Origin: Peribacillus simplex NBRC 15720 = DSM 1321
Lineage (GTDB): Bacteria > Bacillota > Bacilli > Bacillales > DSM-1321
Assembly: GCF_002243645.1 (NCBI RefSeq)
Contig: NZ_CP017704.1
Coordinates: forward strand, 2,870,001-2,934,000
Reading direction: 5' to 3'
DNA length: 64,000 bases
Shown: positions 1,644 through 8,540 of the stretch, piece by piece
How the letters are laid out: every line of letters begins with the position of its first letter
Numbering within the stretch: position 1 is the first letter of the stretch
The notes under the pieces: generated by a model
Database searches by the model: none
What the model was told of the DNA's origin: nothing
What the model saw: only the letters and a program-made list of their open reading frames with translations
Program-made: the position numbers and the translations under genes

Positions 1644-2573
1644 ATGATTATCAATCACAATATCTCAGCTCTAAACACGCACCGTCAATTATCAAGTGCA
1701 ACGAATGCACAATCCAAATCAATGGAGAAACTTGCATCGGGCATGCGCATCAACCGTGCAGGCGATGATGCTGCTGGTCTTGCAATCTCTGAAAAAATGC
1801 GTGGACAAATCCGCGGATTGGACCAAGCTTCCCGTAACTCACAAGATGCTATCTCTTTGATCCAAACAGCTGAAGGTGCATTAAACGAAACTACTGATAT
1901 CCTTCAACGTATGCGTGAACTTGCTACTCAAGCATCAACGGATACTAATACAACTAGTGACCGTGGAGAAATCCAAAAGGAAATGGATTCTTTAACATCT
2001 GAAATCAACCGTATCGGTAATACAACTGAATTCAATACACAGAAATTATTGAATGGCTCAAAAGACTCTAATAATCCTGATGGTACAAGTGCAGGAGTTG
2101 CAGGTGTAGGTCTTCAATTCCAAATTGGAGCAAACGAGAACCAAAGTCTAACACTTGAAATTAAAGATATGCGTGCTGCTGCTCTTGGATTGACTGGTAC
2201 TGCTAATGATCCAGGGTTCACGGCTGCTAATGGCGTAAGTGACGGTACTAATTCTACCGCTAGTGAAGCTGGACTAGATGTTTCTAGTGCTGCTAATGCA
2301 TCAGCTGCAATCACAGCAATCCAAGGAGCAATTGATAACGTATCAGCTGAACGTTCTAAATTAGGTGCTAACCAAAACCGTTTAGAGCATACTATTAACA
2401 ACCTAGGTACTTCTTCTGAAAACCTGACGGCTGCTGAATCACGTGTTCGTGATACAGATATGGCTAAAACAATGATGGAGCAAACTAAAAACTCTATCTT
2501 GGCGCAAGCTTCACAAGCAATGTTGGCTCAAGCAAATTCTGCACCTCAAGGAGTCTTACAACTTCTAAGGTAA
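1644..2573 (+). CDS. hag: Flagellin, reading frame as in unspliced mRNA
   Basis: 309 residues. N-terminal D0/D1 (MIINHNISALNTHRQL, about 1-140), a variable centre and C-terminal D1/D0 (about 220-309) ending APQGVLQLLR. It polymerises into the filament after export with FliS. ATG follows AAGGAGG at optimal spacing. The last codons overlap the predicted 5' splice site of a group I intron: exon 1 likely stops at 2556, and the bases read here as the final Leu-Gln-Leu-Leu-Arg-stop (2556-2573) belong to the intron apart from the first base. The final codons CTA AGG are unusual for such a highly expressed gene, consistent with intron rather than exon origin. See the intron and exon 2 entries for the spliced form. 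Confidence 0.95.
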   Translation: MIINHNISALNTHRQLSSATNAQSKSMEKLASGMRINRAGDDAAGLAISEKMRGQIRGLDQASRNSQDAISLIQTAEGALNETTDILQRMRELATQASTDTNTTSDRGEIQKEMDSLTSEINRIGNTTEFNTQKLLNGSKDSNNPDGTSAGVAGVGLQFQIGANENQSLTLEIKDMRAAALGLTGTANDPGFTAANGVSDGTNSTASEAGLDVSSAANASAAITAIQGAIDNVSAERSKLGANQNRLEHTINNLGTSSENLTAAESRVRDTDMAKTMMEQTKNSILAQASQAMLAQANSAPQGVLQLLR

Positions 2574-2893
2574 ATTTGAAGGGCGTTTTATCTAGTAATG
2601 GATAAAATTATGACTGGGTGAATTGCTGGAACTTCCTAAAGCTGCATCAACCACAACGTAACTGGAAACGGTAAGCGTGAAGGTCTGAAAATGGTGGAGA
2701 TGACATAATGGATAATCAGCAGCCAAGCTCCTTTGAGGAAACTCTGGAGAAGGTTCAACGACTAGGATATACAGTCTAAGGCGAAGGCTATGACAATGAA
2801 ATCCGTAGGGTGGCGGTAGCCATTCGAAGTGCCCAGCCCCTTATAACATAAGGGTGAAGATATAGTCTATTCTATGTTCGAAAGACATAGTCG
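2557..2893 (+). ncRNA. Group I self-splicing intron in the 3' end of hag
   Basis: All four conserved core elements are in order: P (AATTGCTGG, 2621), Q (AATCAGCAGCCAAG, 2714), R (GTTCAACGACTA, 2753) and S (AAGATATAGTC, 2857). Supporting pairings: P1 GTCT (2553-2556) with the guide GGGC (2581-2584) giving the required U-G at the 5' splice site; P2 TTTTATC/GATAAAA (2586-2592/2601-2607); P3 GACTG/CAGTC (2612-2616/2772-2776); P4 GCTG/CAGC (2625/2717); P7 GACTA/TAGTC (2760-2764/2863-2867); P9 CTATGT/ACATAG (2872-2877/2885-2890). A terminal G at 2893 fits the 3' splice site. It has no internal ORF. Presence of the intron core is nearly certain; the exact splice sites are inferred. An alternative pair is 2528/2898 (see findings). 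Confidence 0.92.
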
Positions 2894-2943
2894 CAAAGCA
2901 AGCGAGCCAACAGCCACAAGGAGTTTTACAACTTCTTCGTTAA
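2894..2943 (+). other. hag: hag exon 2 (flagellin C-terminus after splicing)
   Basis: Reads in frame as ...KQASQQPQGVLQLLR followed by TAA at 2941-2943, an authentic flagellin C-terminus of the common Bacillus form QQPQGVLQLLR. Joining base 2556 to 2894 keeps the frame and gives a 320-residue flagellin with a longer tail; joining 2528 to 2899 gives a tail of exactly the unspliced length. It is followed by the transcription terminator, as expected for the true end of hag. Confidence 0.8.
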
Positions 2944-3295: not shown

Positions 3296-4138
3296 TTAGT
3301 TTTGTTTTTTAATTTCTTGCCATTTGTAAGTAACGGACCAATAACTTCTTTTTAGCATCTTTGCAATTTCATTTGTTGTAAAACCATTTTTTTTAAGTTG
3401 TCTTAGTAATTTAATTTCATCTGGAGAATAGGGTTTAGAGCGATCTGAACTGCTGGTAAGAATCGTGTAATCCGGATACTTAGATTTCCATCTGAGTATT
3501 TCTTTTTGATTTCGGAATTCCCAAGAGGTTTTATATAACATAGAAGGACAAGTTTTTGCTACAGGTTCGATTAGTTCGAGGAAACGAAAAGTTTCTTTAA
3601 CAGAAGTAGTTTTTAGAATATATCCATATCCATCCTTACGAGAACTCAGCTTTAAGGATAAATGATATGTGGTAAATATATGTTCCTTTAGTTTCTCTAA
3701 TTCGTCTTTAGGATAACATTGAAGGTAAAGATAAATATGCGGTGTGAGGTATATAATTTTTTTATTATGATTTACCCTGTATGAGATGCTTAATGAGCCA
3801 TCATCCATGTATAGAATAGTTAGGAAATGTGGTAAAAGGCAATTTTCCAGTAATGTGAAAGGGAGATGTTTAGTTCCATCATTGCTGTAAAAGTGTGGGA
3901 ATAAATTCGTAAATAATTCTAAAGAAGCGGAACGGACACATTGGCTTGCCGGAGTGATATACAATAATCCATCAAAAAAGGCAATTTTCCATTTTCGATA
4001 ATCTTCCTGAGATGTGCCGTAGTGTTCCCGATAGCTATTGTTCTTTCTCCTGCTATTTTTATAAATTTTCGTGATTTCACCGTCACTTATAACGCTGGCA
4101 TATAATATATTTTTCTGGATTTCAGTAAGATCAATCAT
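3296..4138 (-). CDS. LAGLIDADG homing endonuclease, free-standing
   Basis: 280 residues from the ATG at 4138, chosen because AAGGAGG sits seven bases upstream; an upstream ATG at 4183 lacks such a site. Two LAGLIDADG motifs are visible: LYASVISDGEI (about residues 12-22) and LTILYMDDGSL (about 110-120), each with its catalytic Asp. The C-terminus (about 230-280) looks like a helix-turn-helix DNA-binding segment. It lies 350 bases from the group I intron and on the opposite strand, so it is not translated from the intron RNA. It most likely cuts intronless hag and drives co-inheritance of the intron. Both motifs are intact, suggesting recent activity. Confidence 0.88.
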   Translation of the reverse strand: MIDLTEIQKNILYASVISDGEITKIYKNSRRKNNSYREHYGTSQEDYRKWKIAFFDGLLYITPASQCVRSASLELFTNLFPHFYSNDGTKHLPFTLLENCLLPHFLTILYMDDGSLSISYRVNHNKKIIYLTPHIYLYLQCYPKDELEKLKEHIFTTYHLSLKLSSRKDGYGYILKTTSVKETFRFLELIEPVAKTCPSMLYKTSWEFRNQKEILRWKSKYPDYTILTSSSDRSKPYSPDEIKLLRQLKKNGFTTNEIAKMLKRSYWSVTYKWQEIKKQN

Positions 4139-4255
4139 GAAAACCTCCTTATATAGAGTGTAAGCTCTTCTTCTTAGTCCCATTTTATATTGTTATCCCC
4201 TCCAATATCAGAATGTTTGTTCTCTATTTAATAATAAATCCTTTGTAGGACACTG

Positions 4256-8449: not shown

Positions 8450-8540
8450 AAATACCACGACAAAGGCAAACTTATTGAAAGATGAGGGCGCAAAGGCACA
8501 GGTCTAAGGTCTTTGTGACTATGATGGCTGGTCTGCCTGA
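8450..8540 (+). ncRNA. Cyclic-di-GMP-I (GEMM) riboswitch upstream of sinI
   Basis: Follows the GEMM-I pattern closely: CACGACAAAGGCAAAC (8456-8471), then P2 with GC...GC closing pairs, stem CTTAT/ATGAG and a GAAA tetraloop (8477-8480), the invariant GCGCAAAG (8488-8495), then P3 CAGGTC (8499-8504) pairing with GATGGCTG (8523-8530) through a two-base bulge, with the tetraloop receptor TCTAAG (8503-8508)/CTAT (8519-8522) and distal hairpin GTC/GAC. It ends GGTCTGCC. No intrinsic terminator follows, so control of translation is more likely than of termination. Confidence 0.85.

Follow-up and report, generated by a model that had tools for sequence, protein, structure and literature searches.

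A flagellin-gene group I intron in Peribacillus simplex that probably carries a translated copy of the exon downstream of it

Results

The hag locus

The stretch of DNA that we analysed, called the window below, comprises 64,000 nt of Peribacillus simplex NBRC 15720 = DSM 1321 (NZ_CP017704.1, positions 2,870,001–2,934,000; assembly GCF_002243645.1), and coordinates count from its first letter. The flagellin gene hag lies on the forward strand. Its exon 1 (1644..2528, +) has 295 codons and ends ..AMLA, the last codon GCU standing directly at the border. It is followed by a group I intron of 370 nt (2529..2898, +; RF00028) and by exon 2 (2899..2943, +), which encodes QASQQPQGVLQLLR-stop and is conserved as code in homologues. 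The borders of the intron rest on intron-less relatives, on the ribozyme elements P1 and P9.0 and on the restoration of the open reading frame.

The intron opens with codons of its own. Its first 45 nt (2529..2573, +) continue exon 1 in frame as QANSAPQGVLQLLR-stop, a stretch that we call the tail, and the unspliced gene is one uninterrupted reading frame (1644–2573, 309 aa). The product of this frame contains Flagellin_N and Flagellin_C, both complete, and matches Pfam Flagellin_C to the final model position (86/86). Exon 2 on its own ends QQPQGVLQLLR-stop. An earlier reading made from the letters of the window, the sequence-only reading, had claimed both a complete 309-residue flagellin from the unspliced message and this independent ending in exon 2, and both claims hold.

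Two open reading frames 5' of hag are probably fliW and csrA. An IS605 OrfB/TnpB-like gene (1–711; PF07282, PF01385), cut by the window edge, lies just before the fliW-like frame. Downstream of the flagellar gene region there is a c-di-GMP-I riboswitch (8455–8540; RF01051, 72.6 bits).

The ribozyme

The group I core that the sequence-only reading had seen at the end of hag is recovered by a covariance search. Rfam RF00028 matches 2555–2890 with 83.6 bits (gathering score 50; E 8.5e-20), covering the whole model (1–253 of 253), and the P3–P8 and P4–P6 core is present together with P7. No other match in the 5.65 Mb genome reaches E <= 0.001. Judged by these matches, the intron at the end of hag is real.

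We aligned 38 divergent introns found at the same hag site. P1 forms between its 5' strand (2526..2529, +) and the internal guide GGGC (2581..2584, +), which starts 7 nt after the stop codon of the tail. The four pairs (G-C, C-G, U.G, C-G) are invariant and formed in 38/38, including the U.G pair expected at the 5' splice site of a group I intron (U2528.G2582). The P2 hairpin (2586..2607, +) has double-sided changes at eight of its nine pairs. The 5' strand of P7 (GACUA, 2760..2764, +) is invariant and pairs in all 38 introns with its 3' strand (UAGUC, 2863..2867, +). P9.0 joins UU (2870..2871, +) to AA, which is followed directly by the omega-G of the 3' splice site (2896..2898, +). Around that site a 3-bp hairpin (2892-2894/2902-2904, +), whose loop also contains a P9.0 strand, is paired in 38/38. 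Two covarying hairpin regions (alignment columns 259–307 and 311–335) are candidates for the extra hairpins (P7.1/P7.2) that subgroup IA has between P7 and P3.

The full structure of 93 pairs is 98.3% paired across the 38 introns, a fit that leans towards the structure, which RNAalifold drew from the very alignment on which it was tested, with P1, P7 and P9.0 added by hand. Double-sided changes occur in 54 pairs, compared to 34.2 after shuffling (0 of 500 shuffles as high) and 14–18 in slid controls. In the hairpin at 2892–2904 one pair that covaries (GC 23, CG 13, UA 1, GU 1) links an intron base to the wobble base of an Ala codon in exon 2. Hence, intron and exon 2 appear to be mutually fitted, which argues that splicing still matters.

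Splice sites

Conservation supports splice sites after U2528 and after G2898. The final base of exon 1 is T in 38/38 aligned introns, all of which continue the open reading frame, and exon 1 ends GCT in 142/142 rows, a count in which the T alone is informative because our search pattern required GC followed by any base. For the 3' site, the P9.0 pairs are TT/AA in 34 introns, TA/TA in two and CA/TG in two (n=38). This covariation of 2870–2871 with 2896–2897 identifies the omega-G as G2898, and a G preceded by P9.0 stands there in 38/38. The end of the Rfam match at 2890 falls short of the 3' splice site.

Many hag genes, though not the one in the window, carry another group I intron with a homologous core after ..RDVD. 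There P1 is formed by the exon sequence GAU|U and the guide AGUC. The two sites thus pair GCU/GGC and GAU/GUC, with C-G against A-U in the middle, a difference that is compensatory. Within the window's site the exon pairing of P1 is invariant, so no covariation appears there.

In intron-less relatives the sequence AQAN|QQPQGVLQLLR is continuous. Joining 2528 to 2899 in the window gives ..AMLA|QASQQPQGVLQLLR-stop, similar to what these relatives have (..AMLAQANQQPQGVLQLLR), and in 38/38 homologues the same junction yields [AS]M[LF]AQA[NS]Q in the same frame. An exon 2 that is out of frame at the junction, which the sequence-only reading had named as grounds for giving up its claim, is thus not what we find at 2528/2899. 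The end of hag is matched in 46 of 61 genomes (own included), and in some intron-less genomes there is a break in this match near 2536/2537, after which it continues from 2899. We place the border at 2528 rather than 2537 because P1 is homologous to that of the second hag intron and because of P9.0.

Other borders were tried and rejected. A 5' site after 2537, as suggested by the BLAST breaks in intron-less relatives, has a base other than U in 9/38 introns, and a site after 2523 has C in 6/38. As candidates for the omega-G, position 2904 is G in 13/38 introns and position 2906 in 1/38.

The sequence-only reading had placed the splice sites after 2556 and after 2893, which would give a flagellin of 320 residues with PQGVSKQASQQPQGVLQLLR. 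In the window this splice keeps the frame, GUCU can be drawn as pairing with the guide GGGC over 4 bp, and 20 of the 21 homologue products listed stay open. The remaining listed product, however, hits a stop. Moreover, 2556 is C in 12/38 introns, the pair at 2555 is lost in 19/38 and possible only in the other 19, and G2893 is paired within the conserved 3-bp hairpin, whereas P9.0 indicates G2898. Neither conservation nor structure speaks for the GUCU pairing, and we consider this splice extremely improbable. A 320-residue form is not expected: with the sites at 2528 and 2898, both predicted products have 295 + 14 codons, that is 309 aa, and differ in three residues. The spliced message would end in QASQQPQGVLQLLR and the unspliced message in QANSAPQGVLQLLR, with its stop 7 nt before the guide. 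The predicted C-terminal peptides ANSAPQGVLQLLR and ASQQPQGVLQLLR would report the use of the two messages.

The rebuilt tail in relatives

The central claim of the sequence-only reading, an intron that begins by encoding the flagellin end anew so that either message has a complete tail, is strongly supported by homologues. All 19 of the first relatives (window included) carry a tail. We then scanned the whole collection with a pattern that is blind to the tail, made of the 3' part of the intron and the start of exon 2. The scan found at least 118 stretches, and the 80 titled ones cover many Bacillales genera. Among the matches listed there are 119 pattern matches, 109 of them with a resolvable exon 1. 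Those without one lie at a locus edge (L034, L041, L050, L058, L077, L087, L105) or look displaced or decayed (L056, L091, L135). Removing L090, which is misassigned in that its exon 1 is part of an uninterrupted hag lying 5' of a displaced intron, leaves 108 introns, of which 107 carry the tail among the matches listed. Together with other relatives, 138 of 139 distinct introns at this site rebuild the tail (the sets of 19, 108 and 139 overlap), divergent ones such as QANQSSSAVLQLLR and QANQTPQSVLQLLG included. The sole exception is L044 of Oceanobacillus luteolus, which reads QFEQIAA-stop.

The guide keeps its place behind the tail. Among the matches listed, GGGC follows the stop in 108/109 rows, the exception being the misassigned L090, and in the 108 introns it begins 7–16 nt past the stop. 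The lengths of these 108 introns, again among the matches listed, fall into all three phases (42, 38 and 28). Exon 2 can therefore be reached in its frame by splicing and not by read-through.

Copies of intron and exon 2 that seem displaced, lying either downstream of an intact hag or apart from it, occur in L018 (1501–1834), L056, L090 and L135. They look as if they had been left by gene duplication or recombination. In Terrilactibacillus tamarindi (L091, around 1414) there is an intron 3' end with exon 2, and no core is recognised upstream of it. The hag gene of O. luteolus (L044, 676–1453) contains both introns, the downstream one being the one without a tail.

Selection on tail and exon 2

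Tail and exon 2 both change mostly in ways that leave the protein alone. For 101 distinct tails pN/pS is 0.095 over codons 6–14 and 0.193 over codons 1–14. For 63 distinct exons 2 the values are 0.139 and 0.101, and here the comparison over codons 1–14 is biased, since the first eight codons of exon 2 are partly fixed by the search pattern while the tail is free. L044, which has no tail, was omitted from pN/pS, and L088, whose exon 2 runs past the available stretch, from the two-sided counts. The synonymous share of changes in the tail is 0.868, whereas column permutations, in which the variability of each column stays and codon phase is lost, average 0.275 and peak at 0.642 (0/500 as high). 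These are pairwise counts among related sequences that are not independent, and they are to be read for direction and size rather than as exact probabilities.

One way for the tail to stay similar to exon 2 would be gene conversion between the two. We tested for it and saw none: over 27 nt a tail shares 19.72 with its own exon 2 and 19.67 with those of others. A tail thus resembles its own exon 2 about as much as it resembles any other, and is not kept alike by gene conversion. Because the changes are mostly synonymous, the intron-borne codons behave as translated code, kept separately from exon 2, as far as their pattern of substitution tells.

One could also argue that the tail is a passive relic, left unused by the arrival of the intron in the manner of a target-site duplication, or produced by conversion from exon 2. 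The imperfect direct repeats of about 45 nt of the gene end that flank the intron do resemble an insertion duplication. A relic, however, would not be expected to have diverged in its codons by mostly synonymous changes, to show no excess similarity to its own exon 2, and to be retained with a single loss across the introns counted above. We regard this origin as very improbable for what the tail is now.

It is even harder to credit that the tail is conserved as RNA, as structure in the P1 loop, with an incidental match to the code. RNAalifold does propose a short hairpin within the tail (columns 33–38/45–50), but its changes are one-sided only and we judge it weak. Variation is found at third positions and at the synonymous first positions of Leu codons, and a role as RNA requires no coding identity with exon 2.

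The opposite view, that splicing has been lost, that the tail is the sole end in use and that exon 2 is vestigial, draws on the fact that the unspliced frame is complete. We hold it to be highly unlikely. The ribozyme helices, P9.0 and the hairpin at the 3' splice site are upheld by compensatory changes, and exon 2 itself evolves mostly synonymously, its low pN/pS over codons 6–14 coming mostly from outside the search pattern.

The two ends are not identical. Tail and exon 2 differ fairly constantly at residues 2–5, for example QSNQM in the tail against QANQQ in exon 2, and such constancy could mean a difference in function. Of the 13 tails that end in Gln, 11 accompany an exon 2 that also ends in Gln. 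The sequence-only reading had left two options, an intron that is neutral for the protein or an on/off source of two C-termini. In the second, splicing would choose between slightly different flagellin ends that differ in FliS binding or filament behaviour. In addition to the differences at residues 2–5, the dependence of flagellin-intron splicing on temperature, as summarised in PMC4853749, would suit such a switch. However, the two ends have equal length and share a nearly identical PQGVLQLL[RQ], where amino-acid identity within a gene is 8.82 of 9 (111 genes), and tail positions 2–5 vary among species, as tolerated positions do. We therefore favour neutrality and think a switch unlikely.

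The second flagellin intron

The second hag intron lies 37 codons from the end of the gene, while the intron of the window lies 14 codons from it. Left unspliced, the second intron adds YALAA-stop or a variant of it (for example in L010, 1134–1500). The set comprises 103 introns, distinct by their first 60 nt. The unspliced ending is AA in 95/103 and [AV]A in 101/103; the eight endings other than AA are six VA, one AV and one AS. Variants include the codon insertions YDLAAA and YVLAAA and the extended YALAASAA.

The SsrA tags of the hosts have the same last two residues. They end AA in 13/13 readable cases (20 genomes or loci sampled), as FALAA, LALAA, FAFAA, LAFAA, LAVAA or SLAAA, with LQAA in one, and the tag of the window's own genome is GKQNNNLAFAA. 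SsrA endings of this kind act as degrons for ClpXP, and the unspliced intron endings plainly resemble them. The tail-less QFEQIAA-stop of L044, at the window's site, likewise ends in AA.

RNA pairing is a real confounder for the degron reading. The last two codons of the second intron mostly lie in a predicted extension of P1, with 5–6 of their 6 nt paired in 68/89 distinct introns, and going by this predicted fold, pairing contributes to the conservation of the Ala codons. In L224 the AA ending is kept with 1 of 6 nt paired. For 40 distinct five-codon sequences pN/pS is 0.351, a weaker constraint than that on the tail. On balance we lean towards the view that Bacillales flagellin introns carry two opposite safeguards against translation before splicing, a rebuilt tail at one site and at the other a putative degron that mimics SsrA and would destroy the stub. 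The second intron lies too far from the gene end, at 37 codons, for a short copy to complete the protein, and a degron-like ending may stand in its place.

A neighbouring endonuclease gene

The intron of the window has 370 nt and contains no endonuclease gene. Downstream of hag, and convergent with it, lies a gene resembling LAGLIDADG homing endonucleases (3296..4183, −; PF03161, LAGLIDADG_2, E 3.2e-16). Relatives of it lie downstream of exon 2, no more than 1.5 kb away and always convergent, in 26 of the 86 intron-bearing loci with enough sequence. In the about 1.5 kb examined downstream of hag genes that are intron-less or have only the second-site intron, none was found (0/10 loci). The intron was probably spread by a LAGLIDADG endonuclease that is encoded beside it and not inside it.

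Discussion

Our results are probably best explained by a group I intron that separates residues 295 and 296 of flagellin, can be spliced and is neutral for the protein, since it brings along a translated copy of the exon downstream. Ribosomes may often arrive at the 5' splice site while the ribozyme is still to be made, folded or spliced, and the unspliced mRNA would then be translated. We infer that splicing occurs, that some messages are translated unspliced and that both products work. Few proteins of flagellated bacteria are as abundant as flagellin, and FliS wraps its C-terminus (PMC6070490). Truncated chains, if produced steadily, should hence be costly. An intron with its own copy of the tail would do no harm, even where the protein is very abundant and has its C-terminus bound by FliS. 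The stop codon after the tail would also bar ribosomes from the ribozyme core.

If this is correct, the locus offers an answer, countable in coding sequence, to the question of how an intron survives in a highly expressed gene although translation may outrun splicing: the intron insures its host against the failure of splicing. It would also indicate that selection at the protein level can act on the opening codons of an intron. Flagellin C-termini that are annotated by unspliced reading in such genomes derive from intron sequence. The intron of the window and the second hag intron, with its apparent degron, would be two opposite solutions that occur naturally in the same gene.

That flagellin genes can contain group I introns is already known. 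Introns reported as IA2 have been described in thermophilic Bacillus/Geobacillus, where they are reported to self-splice (Hayakawa and Ishizuka 2009, 2012, as cited in PMC3984707 and PMC4853749). The intron of the window resembles them in being a group I intron within a flagellin gene. PMC4853749 summarises their splicing as dependent on temperature, with motility promoted when the temperature is higher. If they are of the same kind, the effect on motility reported there fits poorly with a neutral intron.

In bacterial group I introns a stop codon often lies just inside the 5' splice site, where it may bar ribosomes or aid folding according to PMC3073962 and PMC3984707. The hag intron likewise has its stop soon past the 5' splice site. 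It differs in that the codons before this stop rebuild the end of the host protein and evolve as protein code. In the literature that we searched, to which the original papers of Hayakawa and Ishizuka did not belong, we found no account of a group I intron that rebuilds a tail or encodes a degron. This is not proof of absence for either coding arrangement.

The position of the endonuclease gene calls to mind the collaborative homing known from phages, in which an intron acts with a neighbouring free-standing homing endonuclease. In both cases an intron without an endonuclease adjoins an endonuclease gene. The hag case differs in that the putative endonuclease is of the LAGLIDADG type, on a bacterial chromosome, and convergent with the host gene.

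Integrating elements can make good the 3' end of a gene into which they insert, as prophage e14 does in icd. There, as in hag, the element supplies a replacement for the coding end that it displaces. The prophage, however, is an unspliced element, whereas hag would have two routes to a complete protein.
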